Source: Caldifarciminota bacterium (lineage in GTDB: Bacteria > Hydrothermota > Tepidihabitantia > SM23-42). Taken from it: a DNA stretch of 64,000 nt. The stretch spans positions 439,327 to 503,326 of the forward strand of contig CP070802.1 of assembly GCA_020343595.1 (NCBI GenBank). The letters are read 5' to 3'. The notes below the pieces were generated by a model that worked only from the letters and a program-made list of their open reading frames with translations, had not been told where the DNA came from and did no database searches. This document shows positions 49,645-64,000 of this stretch, one piece after another (positions within the stretch are counted from its first letter, which is position 1; every line of letters starts with the position of its first letter). Both the position numbers and the translations under genes were made by a program.

Positions 49645-50530
49645 GCAACAGGATCAGATCTATCATCAGCCCGTCCTTCTGGATGAAGTCATCCGCTATT
49701 TGGATCTGAAGGCTGGAGGTACTTATCTTGACTGCACGGTCGGTGGAGCTGGTCATCTCATGGCAATGTTGAAACGGACGCAGGATACAACCTTTATCGG
49801 CATTGATTGTGACCCTGATGCCGTTGCATACAGCAGAGAATTGACGTCGGCTTATAGCAAGCGTTGTTATCTCATAGAGGATAATTTTATTAATCTAGAT
49901 TTAATCCTTGACAAATTAAATATCGGGGGCGTCGATGGTGCGCTGTTTGACCTGGGCGTCTCTTACCATCAACTTGCAACTCCGTCCCGCGGGTTCAGCT
50001 ACGAACGGGAAGGTCGTCTGTTGATGAATATGTCACCGGTGACCGAATCCTTGAGCGATAGGTTGAGGAGAGTCAGGAAGAACGAGATAATCAAGGTTCT
50101 GAAGGAATTCGGTGATGTCCGCAATTACCGCAAATTGGGCCAGCGCATATACGATGCGCGAAGGAATCTCCATTCGACGCTGGAACTGCGAAGACTTGTG
50201 GAAGATTCGGTACCGCGCAGGTTTCTTAAGAAGAACCTGCAAAAGGTTTTTCAAGCGCTCAGGATCTGGACGAACGATGAACTATCCAACCTCTCGCAGG
50301 CATTACCTACAGCCTTTCAGAGGCTGGGGAAAGAGGGAAGGATGGTTGTGATATCATATCACTCGGGTGAAGACAGGATCGTTAAACGCTTCTTCCGGCA
50401 ATTGAAGGTGTCAGGAAAAGCTCGTTTATTGAGCAAGAAAGCAATGAAGCCGAGTGATGAAGAGATCCGTGAAAACCCCAGGGCAAGGAGCGCCAGGTTG
50501 AGGGGAGCGGAGAAATGCGCATCCTCATAA
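49637..50530 (+). CDS. rsmH: 16S rRNA m4C1402 methyltransferase RsmH
   Basis: 297 residues from TTG 49637, the only start codon ahead of the conserved YHQPVLLDEVIRYLDL. The SAM site is DCTVGGAGH (about 33-41), with later GALFDLGVSYHQLATPSRGFS and VISYHSGEDRIVKRFF. It methylates N4 of C1402 in the 16S decoding centre. Standard position after mraZ, here shifted by the STAS gene. Confidence 0.96.
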   Translation: MPEQQDQIYHQPVLLDEVIRYLDLKAGGTYLDCTVGGAGHLMAMLKRTQDTTFIGIDCDPDAVAYSRELTSAYSKRCYLIEDNFINLDLILDKLNIGGVDGALFDLGVSYHQLATPSRGFSYEREGRLLMNMSPVTESLSDRLRRVRKNEIIKVLKEFGDVRNYRKLGQRIYDARRNLHSTLELRRLVEDSVPRRFLKKNLQKVFQALRIWTNDELSNLSQALPTAFQRLGKEGRMVVISYHSGEDRIVKRFFRQLKVSGKARLLSKKAMKPSDEEIRENPRARSARLRGAEKCASS

Positions 50531-50766
50531 TTTTCGTTTCGGTTATTATCTATATGTTCGTGCTTGTCCTAATCGAAAGTGAACTGGTCAAGATCGAGGT
50601 GCGAAAAGAGGTTATCGAGCGCGATGTTGTTGAATTACAGAATGAAAAAAAGCAGCTTGAATCAAGCCTCATCGATGTGGCGAATCTCGCTCATATCGAA
50701 GCCGCCGCAAGGGAGATGGGGTTCGTTTTTCCTCAAAAAGATGACATACTGGGAGTGATAGAGTGA
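50515..50766 (+). CDS. ftsL: FtsL/DivIC-like division protein
   Basis: 83 residues: one N-terminal membrane helix (about 2-20), then a leucine-rich coiled coil (VRKEVIERDVVELQNEKKQLE) and a short end (AAREMGFVFPQ), the exact layout of FtsL. It overlaps rsmH by 16 bp and ftsI by 4 bp, the standard slot for ftsL. With FtsB and FtsQ it activates FtsWI. Assignment rests on position and topology because FtsL sequences are poorly conserved. Confidence 0.85.
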   Translation: MRILIIFVSVIIYMFVLVLIESELVKIEVRKEVIERDVVELQNEKKQLESSLIDVANLAHIEAAAREMGFVFPQKDDILGVIE

Positions 50767-52388
50767 TTCGCACCAAAATGCTTAACGTGTTCCTCTTCCT
50801 TGTGTCCTTGGTCTTTTTCTCTTACCTCTTTTACATTCAGGTCTTCAGGCATCAATACTACGAGAAGAGAGCAAGACAACAGCACGAGAAAAAATTCATT
50901 TTACTGGGTGCCCGGGGCAATATCTATGATCGGAGCGGTGTTCCGATCGCTACTTCAGAGCCGTGTTTTTCCATCTTTTGCACACCTCGCTATGCTTGTG
51001 ATGCAGCGAAACTTGTACGCGAAGTCTCCAGACTTTCGGGTAAACCGAAAGCCCGGTTGAAGAAATTGGTGGAAGACGGCGATTTCTTCTGGGTCCAGAT
51101 GAAGGTCGATATTGAACAGCGGGACCGTTATTTGGCCATCGACGATCCGTCGCTCGGATACACCCATGATCTGAACCGAAGATACAATATGCCTGAGATA
51201 TTCTCGAGTATTGTCGGCAAGTGCGGTTTGGATAATCACGGTATTGAGGGACTGGAACTGCAATTCGATGAGGTTCTGAGCGGTGAATCGGGATTTGCGA
51301 TCTACCAGAAGGATCCGTCCGGCAGTATCTTTCCCTACCATAATTATCCTGAGCAGGAGCCGCGGCCGGGCGCGGATATATACCTTACGCTAGATCTTCA
51401 GTTACAGGCCATCTTGCACGATAAGTTAAAGGATTGCCTCGAAAGAGAAGATGCCCAGCTGGCCGCAGGTCTGATCATCGATCCAGAGACCGGGAACATT
51501 CTGGCTATGGTAAACGCGGGTAAGAACGGCGATCGTAGAAATCATATAATATGCGATGAATTCGAGCCTGGTTCTACGTTCAAACTCATGTGTTTGACTT
51601 TCGCATTAATGAACGGCGCACATGAAGATGACAGGATCGACACCGAGACCGGGAAGATCAAGATAAGAGGGCATACAATAAATGACTATCGTGATTACGG
51701 GATCGTCACGCTCAGGCAGGCAGTCGCCCATTCAAGCAATGTGGCAATGGTTAAGCTGTCGAGGAAATTCGATCGTGAAAGATTCCTGCTACTGGTGAGG
51801 GATTTCGGTTTCGGGGAGTTGACCGGCATTGAGTTTCCGGGCGAAGTACGGGGCCGATTGCCCGATGGCACTGGGTTGAATGATATTGAATTTGCCACGC
51901 TGGTCTTCGGCCAGGGGCTTACCGTCAACATGCTACAGCTTGCCATGGCATACCAATCCATTGCCAATGACGGTATATTGAACAAACCCAATATCGTACG
52001 GGCCGTGAGAAAAGGGGATAAGACGGCATATGAAGTCGATCCACTCCGCATACGCCGTGTGGTCGATGTGTCGACTGCGCAGGAAGTTACCGACATACTA
52101 TGTTCAGTCGTCGAGGAAGGAAGCGGTGCGGCAGCGGCATTCAACGATATGAAGATCGCTGGAAAAACAGGAACCGCGCAGAAGGTCGTTAATGGGGCCT
52201 ACTCAAACAGTTCAGTGATCGCAACATTTGTTGGTTTCTTCCCGGCACCGGATCCCGATTATTTGATTATGCTGATGATCGACGAGCCCAAGAGCGGATA
52301 TTGGGCGAGCACGATAGTGGCACCAGTGTTCAAGGAAATTGCCCAGAGTCTCTATCAGATGAACTCACATCACTATGCGGCTAAGTGA
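50763..52388 (+). CDS. ftsI: Division transpeptidase FtsI (class B penicillin-binding protein)
   Basis: 541 residues. One N-terminal membrane helix is followed by the pedestal region opening with GARGNIYDRSG, then the transpeptidase domain with STFK (about 270), SSN (about 323) and KTGTAQ (about 466). No PASTA repeats follow. It cross-links septal peptidoglycan with FtsW, which is encoded downstream. It overlaps ftsL and murE. Confidence 0.95.
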   Translation: MIRTKMLNVFLFLVSLVFFSYLFYIQVFRHQYYEKRARQQHEKKFILLGARGNIYDRSGVPIATSEPCFSIFCTPRYACDAAKLVREVSRLSGKPKARLKKLVEDGDFFWVQMKVDIEQRDRYLAIDDPSLGYTHDLNRRYNMPEIFSSIVGKCGLDNHGIEGLELQFDEVLSGESGFAIYQKDPSGSIFPYHNYPEQEPRPGADIYLTLDLQLQAILHDKLKDCLEREDAQLAAGLIIDPETGNILAMVNAGKNGDRRNHIICDEFEPGSTFKLMCLTFALMNGAHEDDRIDTETGKIKIRGHTINDYRDYGIVTLRQAVAHSSNVAMVKLSRKFDRERFLLLVRDFGFGELTGIEFPGEVRGRLPDGTGLNDIEFATLVFGQGLTVNMLQLAMAYQSIANDGILNKPNIVRAVRKGDKTAYEVDPLRIRRVVDVSTAQEVTDILCSVVEEGSGAAAAFNDMKIAGKTGTAQKVVNGAYSNSSVIATFVGFFPAPDPDYLIMLMIDEPKSGYWASTIVAPVFKEIAQSLYQMNSHHYAAK

Positions 52389-56197: not shown

Positions 56198-57499
56198 ATG
56201 AAAGTGCTCTTATTGGGTTTGGGCCGGGCAAATCTTGGGGTTGCTGAGTATCTGGTGAACAAGGGCGAAGATGTCTTCGTTTATGATGAGAATATGTCGA
56301 GCCTTGCTGCCCAGGCACAGAAGATGATAGCAAACGGGAGGGTAAAGAAATATTCCGCACAGGACTATGATCTTGCCATCACTTCGCCTGGGTTCCGGCC
56401 TGGCAAAGCAATATTCACGATGTTGAATAATCAGGCTACGCCCGTCATTGACGAGATAGAGTATGTCTATACGCAGTTGCATGACCCCAAGGTCATCGCA
56501 GTGACCGGGACAAACGGCAAGAGCACGACCGCCGCATTGATAAGCAGCGTTATGACCGCTGCTGGGATCAGTCACTTCCTTGGCGGAAATCTTGCCCCGG
56601 GTAAGCCGTTTTCAAGAGTCCTTCTCCAGGATGCGTACGATTACTACGTACTCGAGGTATCTTCTTTTCAGCTCATGCGCATTGACAAATTCCGTGCTTG
56701 TATTGCCGTGCTCACCAACATAGGCGTGGACCATTTGAACTGGCACAGGGACTTCGCAGAATACAGGAATGCGAAGCTGCGAATATTCGCCAATCAAGAC
56801 CGCAGTGATTTTGCGGTTCTGAACTTTGATGATGAATGGATACGAAAACTTGCCGATACAATGGAAGCGCGTGCCGTCTTCTTTGGACATCAGAATGCCG
56901 AAGGTGTGTCTCTCAACGGTCAGTTCCGCTATGATGGCGCTGCATTATTCAAAAATGCCGGTCTTCCTTTATCAGGAGCGCATAATCTGATGAATATGGC
57001 GGCAGCGATTGCGGTTGCTAAAATACTGCAGATCGACAACGCAGATATTGAAAGAGGAATCAGAGAATTCAAGGGCCTGCCTCATCGCATGGAGGACCTG
57101 GGCGTGCACAAAGGCATTAGATATATAAACAATTCAATGTGCACGAACGCGACCGCGGCGACTGCTTCATTTCTTGCTACCACGGGGCCGAGAATCGTCA
57201 TCTTCGGAGGCAGGCACAAGGGCGACGAAGGCCAGGACTATCTCGATGTGTTGGTCAGGAGCGCAAAGGCATGCGTGATATTGGGCGAGAATGCGAATTT
57301 CATAGCCGACTATTTCACCGAACAGGGCTATTCACAATTTGCCGTTGCCGAGAACATGAAGGAAGCAGTTGCCAGAGCCCGGGCTTTTGCGTCGCCTGGT
57401 GACACGGTAATTCTGAATCCCGGATTTTCATCATTCGATTATTTTGGCAATTTCGAGGAACGTGGGGAGGCATTCAGGGATGCTGCACGGCAAGACTGA
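56198..57499 (+). CDS. murD: UDP-MurNAc-L-Ala:D-Glu ligase MurD
   Basis: 433 residues: N-terminal Rossmann start VLLLGLGRANLGVAEYL, P-loop GTNGKSTTAALI (about 107), LEVSSFQL, GVDHLNWH. The conserved loop usually NDSKATN (near residue 310) reads NNSMCTNAT here, losing the Asp and Lys that contact substrates in the Escherichia coli enzyme. All other motifs are intact, and the genomic position between mraY and ftsW is standard. It adds D-glutamate. Confidence 0.94.
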   Translation: MKVLLLGLGRANLGVAEYLVNKGEDVFVYDENMSSLAAQAQKMIANGRVKKYSAQDYDLAITSPGFRPGKAIFTMLNNQATPVIDEIEYVYTQLHDPKVIAVTGTNGKSTTAALISSVMTAAGISHFLGGNLAPGKPFSRVLLQDAYDYYVLEVSSFQLMRIDKFRACIAVLTNIGVDHLNWHRDFAEYRNAKLRIFANQDRSDFAVLNFDDEWIRKLADTMEARAVFFGHQNAEGVSLNGQFRYDGAALFKNAGLPLSGAHNLMNMAAAIAVAKILQIDNADIERGIREFKGLPHRMEDLGVHKGIRYINNSMCTNATAATASFLATTGPRIVIFGGRHKGDEGQDYLDVLVRSAKACVILGENANFIADYFTEQGYSQFAVAENMKEAVARARAFASPGDTVILNPGFSSFDYFGNFEERGEAFRDAARQD

Positions 57500-58547
57500 T
57501 CGAATTCTGCTATTGCTCGTTATATGCCTCGTTGTACTTGGGATCATCTTCGTGTTCTCATCTTCGTACTATCGGGCATTACGGCAAGGGGAGAATTCTA
57601 CGTACTATCTGATGGCACACCTCAGGAGAGTTCTGGTTGCCGTTGGTTTCTTTCTGCTCGGTCTCCTCATCCCTTACGAGACAATTAGGAGAATGCTCTT
57701 ACCCTTGCTCGTTCTCATACTATTGAGCTTATTGATGACCGTTTTTGCGGGACGGTTCCAATTCGGAGCAAAGAGGTCATTACTGATCGCTTCAGTGGGC
57801 CTCCAGGTCTCGGAATTCGTCAGGATCTGGTTGGTCTTCTTTCTGGCGAATTTCTTCTCTGCCCATCCAATGACAGCGAGTACTCATCGGGGTCTGGCAA
57901 CAATCCTTGGCATCTCCTTCGTGATAATAATACTGGTTGCGATACAACCTTCGATTTCAATGGCTTTTATCTGTCTGGCAACTCTGGTGGCTATGTTGAT
58001 CTATGGTTGTGCGAAATTGAAATTTCTGCTTGTAACAAGCACGGTCAGCGCCGCCATTCTTGGGATCTTCATAAGAATATTCCCGCACGCTCAACATCGC
58101 ATTGCGACCTTCGTATCCGAACCTACGTACCAGGTCAGGCAGTCCCTTATCGCGATCGGATCCGGTGGTCTCTTTGGCAAAGGCCCTGGCGCAGGTCTGC
58201 AGAAGTTTCTGTTCCTGCCCGGTATCCACAATGATTTCATTTTTGCCCATATCGCCGAAGAACTGGGTTTCATAGGATGTATCGTTGTTTTTGTCTTCTA
58301 CTGGCAGATCTACCTGCGTGGCCTGTCCATAGCCGGTAATGCGGATGACGAATTCGCGAGACTGATGGTTCTCGGTCTGAACGCTTCTTTGTTCATAATA
58401 TTCCTCGTTCACGTTGGTGTCAGCGTGGGACTCCTACCGCCAACCGGTATTCCCCTCCCTTTCATCTCGTTTGGCGGCTGGTCACTCGCGGCAAATCTTT
58501 TCGCAGTGGGCATCATTCTCCAGGCTTCTCGCAGGAGGAATCTATGA
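57480..58547 (+). CDS. ftsW: Septal peptidoglycan polymerase FtsW
   Basis: 355 residues from ATG 57480, 20 bp inside murD; a TTG at 57444 would add 12 residues. About ten membrane helices of the SEDS family, with FVFSSSYYRALRQG, VGLQVSEFVRIWLVFFLA and the late LPPTGIPLPFISFGGWSL. It polymerises lipid II at the septum with FtsI. The stop overlaps the murG start. Confidence 0.95.
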   Translation: MLHGKTDRILLLLVICLVVLGIIFVFSSSYYRALRQGENSTYYLMAHLRRVLVAVGFFLLGLLIPYETIRRMLLPLLVLILLSLLMTVFAGRFQFGAKRSLLIASVGLQVSEFVRIWLVFFLANFFSAHPMTASTHRGLATILGISFVIIILVAIQPSISMAFICLATLVAMLIYGCAKLKFLLVTSTVSAAILGIFIRIFPHAQHRIATFVSEPTYQVRQSLIAIGSGGLFGKGPGAGLQKFLFLPGIHNDFIFAHIAEELGFIGCIVVFVFYWQIYLRGLSIAGNADDEFARLMVLGLNASLFIIFLVHVGVSVGLLPPTGIPLPFISFGGWSLAANLFAVGIILQASRRRNL

Positions 58548-59608: not shown

Positions 59609-60980
59609 ACCCAAGATGTTTGGCAGGACAAAACATATTCACTTCGTCGGGATAGGTGGCATTGGAATGAGTGGTTTGGCGACGATCATGAAGAATCTTT
59701 CATTCACGGTGACCGGTTCTGATCTTCATGCCTCGGACATAACACGGCGTCTGAAGCGCTTGGGTATTCGGGTAATCGGGGGACACAGAAAGGGTAATAT
59801 TGCAGGAGCTGACGTAGTTGTTTATTCGTCTGCGATCCGCGATGACAACCCCGAGCTTCGCGAAGCAAGGACAAAGAATATTCCAGTAATCCACCGGGCC
59901 GAATTGCTTGCTGAGTTGACGCGTACGAAATTTGCGATTTGTATTTCCGGTACGCATGGTAAAACAACAACTACTTCTTTCGTAAGTGAGGTTCTGCAGA
60001 ATAGCGGGATGTCACCGACCACGGTAATAGGTGGTATCGTCATCGGAAGGACTCAGGCTACTCTCGGGGCGGGGAATTTCCTCGTCTGTGAGGTCGATGA
60101 GTCCGACAAGTCATTCCTCAGGGTTTACCCATCGTTTGCCATTATTACAAACATCGAGGCAGAGCATCTTGATTACTACAAAGATCTGGATGAGATCAAA
60201 GAGCATTTCGGGCATTTTGCTAACCATGTACCATTCTGGGGAAGTGTATTTTTGGGAATAGATTCACCGGTGAGCAAGAGCATAGTGCAAAACATACGTC
60301 GGCAGGTGATCTCATATGGTTTCGAAGAATCTGCTGATCTGCATGCGGAAGATCTGCAGAAATATGATTTCGGGGTGTCTTTCAAGGTAAGATATCATAA
60401 GAAATTGGTCGGCAAGTTCAGGATCAATTTGCCTGGTCGACACAATGTCGCCAATGCCCTAGCGGCGATAGGTGTTGGTCTTGAATTAGGTATTGGTGTT
60501 AGAAAGATAAGGGGCGCGATAGACGCATTTCGTGGCGTACATCGTCGGATTGAGTATATAGCAGAAGTGAACGGTATCAGAATATTCGATGACTACGGGC
60601 ACCATCCAACCGAGATCGCGGTTACTTTGCAGACATTGCGCGATTACTTCCCGGCGCAGAGAATTGTCGCCGTCTTCCAACCACACAGGTTCACGCGCAC
60701 TTACCATCTCTTTGACCAATTTGCTAAGTCGTTCCTCAGTGCCGATCTGGTGATCGTTACCGAGATATATGCTGCACATGAAATGCCCATACCGGGTGTG
60801 ACCGGGAGGGCTTTGGCCAATCGACTTTCGAAGGAACAGAATGGGGTGCACTTTATCAGTAAGATCGATCAAATCCTGGAATACCTCAGACAGAATCTGA
60901 TGCCTGGTGATGTTATCGTCATTCAGGGGGCTGGGGATATTAACCAGGTTGCGCGGCAACTTCTCAAGGAATTGAGATAA
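59595..60980 (+). CDS. murC: UDP-MurNAc:L-alanine ligase MurC
   Basis: 461 residues from ATG 59595, 8-9 nt after AAGGA; TTG 59589 and ATG 59601 are neighbouring alternatives. HFVGIGGIGMSGLA opens the Rossmann domain, GTHGKTTTTSF is the P-loop (about 118), and FDDYGHHPTEIAVTL and FQPHRFTRT are typical. It adds L-alanine to UDP-MurNAc. Stop and murB start share bases (TAATG). Confidence 0.96.
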   Translation: MKMLRPKMFGRTKHIHFVGIGGIGMSGLATIMKNLSFTVTGSDLHASDITRRLKRLGIRVIGGHRKGNIAGADVVVYSSAIRDDNPELREARTKNIPVIHRAELLAELTRTKFAICISGTHGKTTTTSFVSEVLQNSGMSPTTVIGGIVIGRTQATLGAGNFLVCEVDESDKSFLRVYPSFAIITNIEAEHLDYYKDLDEIKEHFGHFANHVPFWGSVFLGIDSPVSKSIVQNIRRQVISYGFEESADLHAEDLQKYDFGVSFKVRYHKKLVGKFRINLPGRHNVANALAAIGVGLELGIGVRKIRGAIDAFRGVHRRIEYIAEVNGIRIFDDYGHHPTEIAVTLQTLRDYFPAQRIVAVFQPHRFTRTYHLFDQFAKSFLSADLVIVTEIYAAHEMPIPGVTGRALANRLSKEQNGVHFISKIDQILEYLRQNLMPGDVIVIQGAGDINQVARQLLKELR

Positions 60981-61864
60981 TGAAGAATCCTTTTAAGGGG
61001 ATACCGAGTATCAGGATGATAGAGGACGAACCGTTAGCCGACCATACTTCATTTCACATCGGCGGCAAGGCCAGGTTCTTTGTATGCGTGTACACGAAGA
61101 AGGCGTTGATAAGAGTTCTGCAAAGGATCGATAAAAATCGATTGCCGTATTTTGTACTCGGCGCGGGTACGAACATTCTGGTTGCAGATTCCGGCTTTCC
61201 TGGAGTTGTTCTGAAACTGGGAGGAATTTTCAAACGTATTTCCTGGAGGGGCGTTTTGGCGCGATGCGGCGGTGGTGTCATGATCAGAGATTTTCTTGAA
61301 GATTCGAAGGAAAAGGGTTACGGCGGCGGAGAATTCCTGGCGGGCATACCGGGTACGATCGGTGGCGCGGTCAAGGGTAATGCCGGCGCATTTGGATGTT
61401 CGATTGCGGACATGGCGATCAGGGTATCAGTGGTTGGCGGGGATGGCAAAGAGCATATCCTTTCCAGATCCGATCTCGGGTTTACCTATAGATCATCCAA
61501 CATTAAGAATGGTTGCACAGTGATAGCCGCGGATCTGGTCATGATACTTGACACAAGAACTAGCATACAAAAACGAATTGACGAAAATCTCAAGAAACGG
61601 ATGGAACGCCATCCAGCTGGCTATTCGGCAGGATCCTTTTTCAAAAATCCGCCCGGACATGCGGCGGGTAAGTTGATTGAAATGTGCGGTCTGAAGGGCA
61701 TTGCGGTCGGTGACGCAGTGGTAAGCGAGAAGCACGGGAACTACATCATCAATCGAGGTAGAGCAAAGGCTGCTGATGTCATTGCGTTGGCCGATCGGAT
61801 AAAAAGGGCGGTGTTCAAGAAGACCGGTATTCAATTAGAAGAAGAGGTGAGACTATTAGGCTGA
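60980..61864 (+). CDS. murB: UDP-N-acetylenolpyruvoylglucosamine reductase MurB
   Basis: 294 residues, FAD-binding. DHTSFHIGGKARFFV and VLGAGTNILVAD form the FAD site, GIPGTIGGAVKGNAGAFG the second, and AGSFFKNPPG contains the catalytic serine. It reduces enolpyruvyl-UDP-GlcNAc to UDP-MurNAc. The short form lacks the YxxxL loop insertion typical of type I enzymes. It lies between murC and the short ftsQ-like gene, the usual murC-murB-ftsQ order. Confidence 0.95.
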   Translation: MKNPFKGIPSIRMIEDEPLADHTSFHIGGKARFFVCVYTKKALIRVLQRIDKNRLPYFVLGAGTNILVADSGFPGVVLKLGGIFKRISWRGVLARCGGGVMIRDFLEDSKEKGYGGGEFLAGIPGTIGGAVKGNAGAFGCSIADMAIRVSVVGGDGKEHILSRSDLGFTYRSSNIKNGCTVIAADLVMILDTRTSIQKRIDENLKKRMERHPAGYSAGSFFKNPPGHAAGKLIEMCGLKGIAVGDAVVSEKHGNYIINRGRAKAADVIALADRIKRAVFKKTGIQLEEEVRLLG

Positions 61865-61872
61865 TTATCGTT

Positions 61873-62169
61873 TTGCTACTGATCATTGTTCTTGCGATAC
61901 TTGCATTTGTCGTGCTGCGAAAACGCGAGCGGTACGTGATGCTTGAGGAAATTATACCGGAGGGCGAGGTGTTATCCGCGGTGGATGGAATAATCAAATA
62001 CAAGGGTGTTCAGTATATTCTGGGCACCACTGATCTTGGAAAGAAAAAGCATCTTCTGGACAAATTGAACTTGTTGGAAGTGGAGGAAATAGGAGTGATC
62101 GATATGCGTTATAGAGGACAGATCATTTTAAGAAATGAAATAGCTTATGATGTTTTAAGGAGGAAATGA
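61873..62169 (+). CDS. Short FtsQ-like membrane protein lacking the POTRA domain
   Basis: 98 residues from TTG 61873; the frame is open upstream, and CTG 61861 or ATT 61855, nearer the GAGGTGAG site, could be the start. One membrane helix (about 1-16) is followed by roughly 80 residues. GIIKYKGVQYILGTTDLGKK then VIDMRYRGQIILRNE matches the end of FtsQ/DivIB (a strand pair with 'LG' and the terminal IDLRY..QVxVR). A normal FtsQ is 230-300 residues with a POTRA domain after the helix; that part is missing. The slot between murB and ftsA is exactly that of ftsQ. Confidence 0.7.
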   Translation: MLLIIVLAILAFVVLRKRERYVMLEEIIPEGEVLSAVDGIIKYKGVQYILGTTDLGKKKHLLDKLNLLEVEEIGVIDMRYRGQIILRNEIAYDVLRRK

Positions 62170-63401
62170 TGGCACGGAAAGAAAGAATCGTCGGCGTCGA
62201 TTTGGGGACAACGAAAATTGCTGCGATCATTGCTGAAGTCGAGGGCGAGGATCTGAAAATTGTAGGCGTCGGTTCTACTCCTTCAAATGGATTGAAGCGC
62301 GGGGTAATCGTTAATCTCGAGAAAGCGATCGAGTCGATCGTGAAATCGGTCGATGAGGCATCGCGCATGGCGGGTGTGAAAGTGGATTCCTGCTATGCCG
62401 GTATTTCTGGTTCACATATAGAAAGTATCAACGCACATGCGATGATTGCGACCGCGCGGTCGGGTGGAGTGGTGACAAAGAGAGATATCGAACGCGTGAT
62501 CGAGCAGGCAAAAGCGATCGCTTTGCCCCTTGATCGTGAGATAATCCATGCGATACCGATCGAATATGTGGTTGATAATGAAAAAGGTATAAAAGACCCG
62601 GTCGGTATGAGCGGGGTGAAGCTGGAGGCCGAAGTACATATCGTAACTGCAGCGATAACGTCTGCGCAAAATATCTACACTGCACTGGAACGCGCGGGCC
62701 TGCGGGTCAAGGATCTGGTACTTCAGCCTCTTGCGTCGTCGTACTCGGTTCTACAGCCGGATGAGATTGATCTGGGCGTATGCCTGTTGGATGTCGGAGG
62801 CGGAACGACAGACCTGGCGATATTCTATGACGGTGCAATTAGATATTCTGAAGTGATACCGCTCGGCGGCGAATACATAACGAATGACATAGCGATCGGC
62901 ATCAGGACGCCCTACAAGCAGGCAGAGGAGATAAAGCGTAAGAACGCAAGTATCTCGGTGTCAGCGGATGAAGGCAAAGAGGAAATTAGGGTTCCAGGTA
63001 TAGGTGGTCGTGAAGATCGGAACATCACCCGGGAGTTACTGGCTTCGATTGTCACTCCCCGCGTGGAAGAAATACTGATGATCACCAATAAGGCGATCAA
63101 GAGAAGCGGGTTCTATGATATCCTCGCCGCCGGTGTTGTTGTGACCGGCGGTACGGCACGACTACGTGGTCTGGACGCACTTGCTGAGGATGTCTTTCAT
63201 CTGCCCGTGAAGATAGGTATTCCAAAGAAGATAGGTGGTCTCACTGATATAGTGCAAGATCCGATCTACGCAACGGGCGTCGGTCTTATTCTGTACGGTT
63301 ACGAGAAGAAAAATCAAGTGCTGATAAAAAGAACAAGAGGTGTGGGTGTGTTCGATGCCCTTAAGAAGAGATTCGAAGATTGGTTCGCTAAGTACTTCTA
63401 A
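62169..63401 (+). CDS. ftsA: Cell division actin-like protein FtsA
   Basis: 410 residues from ATG 62169, the second of two tandem ATGs and the better spaced from AAGGAGG. The actin fold shows IVGVDLGTTKIAAII, LLDVGGGTTDLAIF and VVTGGTARLRGLDALAE; domain 1C is at about 80-165. The end DALKKRFEDWFAKYF is the amphipathic membrane-targeting helix. FtsA tethers FtsZ to the membrane. Its start overlaps the stop of the ftsQ-like gene. Confidence 0.97.
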   Translation: MARKERIVGVDLGTTKIAAIIAEVEGEDLKIVGVGSTPSNGLKRGVIVNLEKAIESIVKSVDEASRMAGVKVDSCYAGISGSHIESINAHAMIATARSGGVVTKRDIERVIEQAKAIALPLDREIIHAIPIEYVVDNEKGIKDPVGMSGVKLEAEVHIVTAAITSAQNIYTALERAGLRVKDLVLQPLASSYSVLQPDEIDLGVCLLDVGGGTTDLAIFYDGAIRYSEVIPLGGEYITNDIAIGIRTPYKQAEEIKRKNASISVSADEGKEEIRVPGIGGREDRNITRELLASIVTPRVEEILMITNKAIKRSGFYDILAAGVVVTGGTARLRGLDALAEDVFHLPVKIGIPKKIGGLTDIVQDPIYATGVGLILYGYEKKNQVLIKRTRGVGVFDALKKRFEDWFAKYF

Positions 63402-63415
63402 AAGGAGGAAGGCAT

Positions 63416-64000
63416 ATGTTTGAATTAGTTGAGGATCCAAAATACATAGCAAAAATAAAAATGATTGGAGTTGGTGGTGCAGGCTGCAATACAATTAACT
63501 ATGCCACGAATCATGGGATACATGGAGTAGAGTGCATCGCTGTTAATACCGACGCCCAGGTCTTGAAATTGAATAAAGCGAACGAGAAGATACAGGTCGG
63601 TACAAATCTAACCCAGGGTTTGGGTGCCGGTGGTGATCCTGAGATCGGCCGCAAGGCTGCTGAAGAATCTCGCGAGAAAATACGCGATGTCTTCCGTGAT
63701 GCAGATATGGTTTTCATTACCTGTGGGGAAGGTGGAGGTACTGGCACTGGCGCCTCACCAATCATTGCTGAAGAGGCAAAGAATTCGGGTGCTCTGGTCG
63801 TTGCGGTTGTTACTCGACCCTTCGAATACGAGGGTGTCTGGCGTATGACGAATGCCCAGAGCGGCATCGATGAACTGAAGGATAACGTCGATACGCTGAT
63901 CGTCATTCCCAACCAGAAATTGATCGCCGTTGCTCCAAAAGACCAGTCGATCATCGAAGCATTCAGATTGGGTAACATGGTGCTCTTTAATGCTATAAAG
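63416..64000 (+). CDS. ftsZ: Cell division tubulin-like GTPase FtsZ (partial, cut by window end)
   Basis: 195 residues are visible from ATG 63416 (after AAGGAGGAAGGC) to the window edge, with no stop. IGVGGAGCNTINY is the first nucleotide loop, GLGAGGDPEIGRKAAEE the second, and GEGGGTGTGASPIIAEEA the tubulin signature; VDTLIVIPNQKL follows. FtsZ polymerises into the division ring. This is the expected end of the dcw cluster. Confidence 0.97.
   Translation, partial: MFELVEDPKYIAKIKMIGVGGAGCNTINYATNHGIHGVECIAVNTDAQVLKLNKANEKIQVGTNLTQGLGAGGDPEIGRKAAEESREKIRDVFRDADMVFITCGEGGGTGTGASPIIAEEAKNSGALVVAVVTRPFEYEGVWRMTNAQSGIDELKDNVDTLIVIPNQKLIAVAPKDQSIIEAFRLGNMVLFNAIK

Follow-up and report, generated by a model that had tools for sequence, protein, structure and literature searches.

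A miniature, POTRA-less FtsQ variant from the WOR-3/Stahlbacteria phylum as a candidate minimal dock for FtsB

Escherichia coli FtsQ is described as a central hub. Both E. coli FtsQ and Bacillus subtilis DivIB carry a POTRA domain (PF08478) and the FtsQ C-terminal domain (PF03799), are about 210-280 residues long, and are encoded between murB and ftsA. They have one N-terminal membrane helix and a C-terminal strand signature, D-x-R-[FY], which contacts FtsB in known FtsQ. In E. coli, the FtsB site spans Y243-W256 with Y248 at its center (Y248F is functional; Y248W and Y248K are not), and the FtsQ-binding region of FtsB covers residues 64-87 (PMC6134095). FtsQ is described as being brought to midcell via its POTRA domain in E. 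coli, with FtsK as the putative partner in this step (PMC8998562). In the Pseudomonas aeruginosa FtsWIQBL structure, the contact between the beta domain and FtsB holds FtsQ, and the POTRA domain and transmembrane segment are flexible (PMC7614612).

We analyzed a 64,000-nucleotide stretch of the genome of a Caldifarciminota bacterium (the window; all features given here lie on its forward strand). The 2.37 Mb genome, which is 93% complete, is assembled as one contig. The ftsQ slot of the window holds a short gene at 61855..62169, exactly where the original prediction had placed it, and we find that this gene is real. We refer to it as mini-ftsQ. Its start overlaps murB (60980..61864; PF02873, PF01565) by 10 nt, and its TGA stop is overlapped by ftsA (62166..63401; PF14450, PF02491). 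The surrounding dcw cluster comprises rsmH, ftsL, ftsI, murE, murF, mraY, murD, ftsW, murG, murC, murB, ftsA, and ftsZ, several of which were named from sequence. An ftsL-like gene (50515..50766), encoding 83 residues with a helix and a coiled coil, lies between rsmH and an ftsI-type transpeptidase gene (50763..52388). Further along are ftsW (57444..58547; TIGR02614, 4.8e-77) and ftsZ (63416..64000), which is cut by the window end and was identified from its sequence, not via a family search. The suggestion of a simplified divisome thus holds in part only: the window encodes FtsA, FtsZ, FtsL, FtsI, and FtsW, and genes for FtsB and FtsK lie outside it in the same genome.

The mini-FtsQ protein consists of a membrane helix, a linker, and then ...GEVLSAVDGIIKYKGVQYILGTTDLGKKKHLLDKLNLLEVEEIGVIDMRYRGQIILRN..., and it ends with the C-terminal signature LG...IDMRYRGQIILR; both the helix and this signature are present as predicted. 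The single N-terminal helix, preceded by a short cytoplasmic N-terminus, covers residues 2-23 (61858..61923; helix 2-22 in an AlphaFold model, pLDDT about 75-81). Residues 37-96 (61963..62142) make up the second half of an FtsQ beta domain and are equivalent to about residues 189-256 of the E. coli protein; when positions are carried over via the PDB-matched full-length profile described below, residues 37-93 fall on about E. coli residues 189-255. A size of about 98 residues had been expected, which is correct if counted from the first TTG. The probable start, placed by conservation, is the ATT at 61855, which gives 104 residues. Similarly, a helix plus a terminal beta segment had been proposed, and both are kept; the retained part extends beyond the terminal strand and takes in roughly the C-terminal 65 residues of the beta domain.

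Mini-FtsQ is below the detection limit of the Pfam FtsQ model. Pfam and NCBIfam scans returned only noise, with no PF03799 or PF08478 match to the window protein, and a PDB search with the mini-FtsQ profile likewise gave only noise (RAVE, JAK2). Two AlphaFold models (from six sequences) were of low confidence, with mean pLDDT values of 57 and 50, and Foldseek with the better of these low-confidence models found no match. In other WOR-3 classes, the murB-ftsA slot is filled by full-length FtsQs of about 210-255 residues, most of which, among those scanned, match PF08478 and/or PF03799. A profile of 20 such proteins matches the solved FtsQ structures 8hhf (1.2e-12), 8bh1, 2vh1, and 6h9n.

Alignment of profiles shows that mini-FtsQ is homologous to the C-terminus of the full-length FtsQs that occupy the same operon slot. 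Using hhalign, the minis align C-terminus to C-terminus with the 20 full-length WOR-3 FtsQs (P=2.6e-8, prob 95). Aligned with four full-length WOR-3 FtsQs, the minis gave P = 1e-6, and adding other minis and intermediates gave P=1.2e-10. The aligned stretch comprises the C-terminal 50-60 residues of full-length FtsQs from sister classes (L055, L099, L053), which share the locus but differ in having 210-255 residues, a whole beta domain, and, in L052, L055, L099, and L102, a POTRA domain (PF08478). Searched against 2139 ORFs from the fetched loci, mini-only HMMs returned nothing but the FtsQ-slot ORF among all matches listed (19 and 21; best E 9e-9), full-length WOR-3 FtsQs among them; this background is enriched, as loci were picked for holding FtsQ or neighboring genes, and all other ORFs there were rejected. 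Furthermore, the Pfam FtsQ model does match one 112-residue mini, from family f19, over positions 44-112 of its 114 (E 0.0011, just below the curated cut-off).

Measured against the aligned full-length proteins, mini-FtsQ retains the membrane helix and the FtsB-site segment; it lacks the POTRA domain as well as the N-terminal half of the beta domain. An FtsQ-type POTRA (PF08478) is found nowhere in the 2.37 Mb genome (93% complete) at E <= 1, and neither is the FtsQ C-terminal domain (PF03799). The predicted absence of POTRA is borne out for the protein, and no second FtsQ was found in the same genome. Because two defining features of FtsQ/DivIB are missing, mini-FtsQ is a new, POTRA-less variant of FtsQ and not a canonical member. 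Targeted searches of the open-access literature, a scope that leaves aside most subscription journals, returned no report of a POTRA-less FtsQ.

Mini-ftsQ is conserved far beyond chance and is neither a pseudogene nor an assembly accident. An in-frame copy is present in 26 of 61 relatives (E down to 7e-51), and all of these belong to the same order, in which 26 of 27 genomes keep the gene. Within the window's family (f1), a single member is not among the carriers, and all four members of its sister family (f2) have the gene. The exception (G012, L045) has its ftsA locus masked by Ns, the probable reason for the missing match. A profile scan of named genomes with a narrower alignment gave 5 loci; relatives that carry a name are "candidate division WOR-3" and Candidatus Stahlbacteria MAGs. 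Identity among relatives ranges from 33 to 85%, and dN/dS values of 0.10-0.33 (seven informative pairs) indicate purifying selection.

Mini-FtsQ keeps, by alignment, the residues that contact FtsB in E. coli. Its D-M-R-Y motif (62101..62112) corresponds to E. coli FtsQ D245-L-R-Y248, with Y86 as the Y248 equivalent. Across 25 mini-FtsQ sequences, the D245 equivalent is always Asp; at the position of Y248, 17 have Phe and 8 have Tyr. These contact positions are among the most conserved in the protein. The FtsB of this genome (PF04977; C1:681273, L058 1366-1659) has an intact tail, ...GMIKKGEKIYLI. The tail sequence IETKAREDLGMIKKGEKIYLIRQR aligns by eye with that of E. coli FtsB, ..ARNELSMTRPGETFYRLV.

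The FtsB tail is kept in genomes with a full or mini FtsQ and lost in those without FtsQ, a correlation that is suggestive only. All 42 genomes with any FtsQ keep the FtsB strand; it is absent in 14 of 15 FtsQ-less genomes (15/15 by eye). The remaining FtsQ-less genome (G032), which scored positive, looks by eye like an artefact of the strand rule, a rule chosen post hoc on these data; an earlier, looser regex scored 4 FtsQ-less genomes positive. In class relatives where murB abuts ftsA (f4-f9), FtsB either has no tail (f4, QMIDPRDTVKKD...; truncated in f6 and f9) or was not detected. FtsB of FtsQ-less families from other classes (f32, f33, f34) ends in ...AREKFGIE or an equivalent, while FtsQ-bearing families keep the tail. 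Two ftsQ loci were read after their FtsB tails: the genome with an intact tail (G133) has a full FtsQ, and the one with a lost tail (G114) has none. A Fisher test on the FtsQ/FtsB table gives p 2e-12, which ignores ancestry and is not taken as a measure of strength. Corrected for ancestry on the FtsA tree, the relation comprises 2-3 independent pairs, and no pair contradicts it; with about three independent losses, it cannot reach significance. Separately, we observed that FtsB of f32-f34 stops just before the FtsQ-binding strand (L157, L160, L165, L167, L169, L201, L202), and that the slot in these families is without FtsQ wherever the ftsA locus was read.

Translation of mini-ftsQ appears to initiate at an AUU codon. 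The candidate start (61855..61857) lies inside the murB 3' end and is ATT in 22/22 loci of the window's family. It follows a Shine-Dalgarno-like GAGGT (61844..61848) by 6 nt, and GGAGG, AGGAG, or GAGGT is found 6-11 nt upstream of ATT in all 22 loci. None of these loci (L001-L021, L023) has an ATG, GTG, or TTG between the upstream in-frame stop and the ATT. The first canonical start is at codon +18 in L003 and at codon +32, behind the membrane helix, in L018. The murB Leu codon that overlaps the ATT is TTA in every one of the 22, and TTA is rare: across eleven genes of the window, it accounts for 31/459 Leu codons. In E. coli, infC and pcnB are known to start with AUU (PMC9410913). Mini-ftsQ would share this start codon with them but differs in being a division gene and in conserving AUU across at least ten genera. 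In Staphylococcus aureus reporters in minimal medium, non-canonical AUU/AUA starts gave ~10% of AUG expression (PMC13009471). In the sister family f2, mini-ftsQ starts with ATG. We also considered a -1 frameshift from murB; it was dropped, as there is no X-XXY-YYZ heptamer and families f2 and f3 use ATG.

We consider it probable that mini-FtsQ is a minimal FtsB-docking anchor: a naturally reduced FtsQ in which a short linker joins one membrane helix to the ~65 C-terminal residues of the beta domain. The C-terminal homology, the loss of POTRA, the FtsB-contact motif, and the matching loss of the FtsB strand in FtsQ-less relatives support the minimal FtsB-docking FtsQ originally proposed, with binding itself as the step we infer. 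The GEKxYLI strand of FtsB would add edge to edge to the last strand of mini-FtsQ, extending the sheet, and this pairing would anchor or stabilize FtsB-FtsL at the membrane. Since mini-FtsQ has no POTRA domain, its recruitment to the septum would probably occur via FtsB-FtsL; the E. coli proposal, in which POTRA and FtsK provide the route, would not apply here although FtsK is present. The AUU start would keep the amount of mini-FtsQ low and coupled to murB translation.

An alternative, which we regard as unlikely, is that mini-FtsQ is a reduced FtsQ by descent that now serves as a vestige or a repurposed regulator (e.g., tuning FtsW/FtsI or FtsL) and not as an FtsB dock. Relatives have deleted the gene outright, with murB directly abutting ftsA, and so mini-FtsQ is dispensable on an evolutionary scale. 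What remains is also half a domain without a confident predicted fold. Against this reading stand the dN/dS values reported above, FtsB-contact positions that rank among the most conserved, and an FtsB tail that is kept where mini-FtsQ is present. That an unrelated small membrane protein sits by chance in the ftsQ slot is very improbable. The Pfam, NCBIfam, and PDB searches that returned no match or noise would fit such a protein, but mini-only profiles recover FtsQ-slot proteins alone from the enriched set of 2139 ORFs, and size intermediates exist (L095, ~150 residues; L100, ~121 residues). We give hardly any credence to a split gene whose POTRA part lies elsewhere, or to damage in a full-length ftsQ. 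The data are from a MAG that is 93% complete, which leaves some room for this; however, this short ORF recurs in 26 genomes, others of which are also single contigs, and is under purifying selection, the genome has no POTRA_1 even at E=1, and murB and ftsA overlap mini-ftsQ at both ends, leaving no room. An unrelated small protein, a pseudogene, and a split gene were thus rejected on the mini-only HMM, hhalign, the POTRA search, and dN/dS.

A whole order has dropped the POTRA domain and half of the beta domain and kept the FtsB contact motif, and the genome of the window still has FtsK. If mini-FtsQ is indeed an FtsB dock, this natural experiment would separate the "recruitment hub" role of FtsQ from its "FtsB dock" role. 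The reduction suggests that FtsQ can do in nature without its other parts, the putative recruitment domain among them. As a very small candidate FtsB-binding unit, mini-FtsQ could serve structural studies and the search for inhibitors that target the FtsQ-FtsB contact.

FtsQ in the WOR-3 phylum ranges from full length via intermediates and minis down to absent. On the FtsA tree, FtsQ is full length in the nearest outgroup of the window's class (f13, f15, f16), a mini in the window's clade (f1+f2+f3), and absent from the other families of the class. Besides f1 and f2, short FtsQs occur in f3 (L027, 103 residues), f17 (L173, L177), f18 (L100), f19 (L056, the 112-residue mini), and f24 (L225). 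Like the window's protein, these and the intermediates of f21 and f28 combine a membrane helix with a C-terminal beta part in the ftsQ slot; unlike it, they have different cut points and weak similarity, and several are far off on the FtsA tree. Minis of f17/f18 and f19, and the intermediates of f21 (L187-L190) and f28 (L095), which are ~150 residues long with the POTRA gone, are placed elsewhere than the window's clade. With four states, the tree requires a minimum of eight changes, and scored as POTRA versus no POTRA it requires three or more; these exact counts are unsure given several long branches and an arbitrary root, and f24 (mini) and f36 (L221, full length) lie outside the tree.

We lean slightly towards a scenario in which erosion starting on the membrane-proximal side reduced FtsQ more than once to an FtsB-docking module, and FtsQ was then lost along with the matching FtsB strand. 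Docking would then be a removable module of the divisome, some lineages would do without any FtsQ and divide using FtsZ, FtsA, and FtsB/FtsL-type proteins, and the remnant in the window's family would be throttled by its conserved AUU start. With a size series and FtsQ-less relatives in one phylum, comparison can directly address what FtsQ is required for.

In many WOR-3 families, murB and ftsA are not separated by any gene, and FtsQ is not detected at other sites either (L028-L032, L034-L043, L046-L050, L184, L191, L192, L194-L197, L199, L200, L222-L224); absence here means not in the slot and undetected by profile A5 and PF03799, and a diverged copy may lie elsewhere. The f21 FtsQs are also without the D-x-R-F end motif and may be on the way to loss. 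In f32-f34, murB is not at its usual place, and murC lies directly upstream of ftsA (L172, L180-L183).
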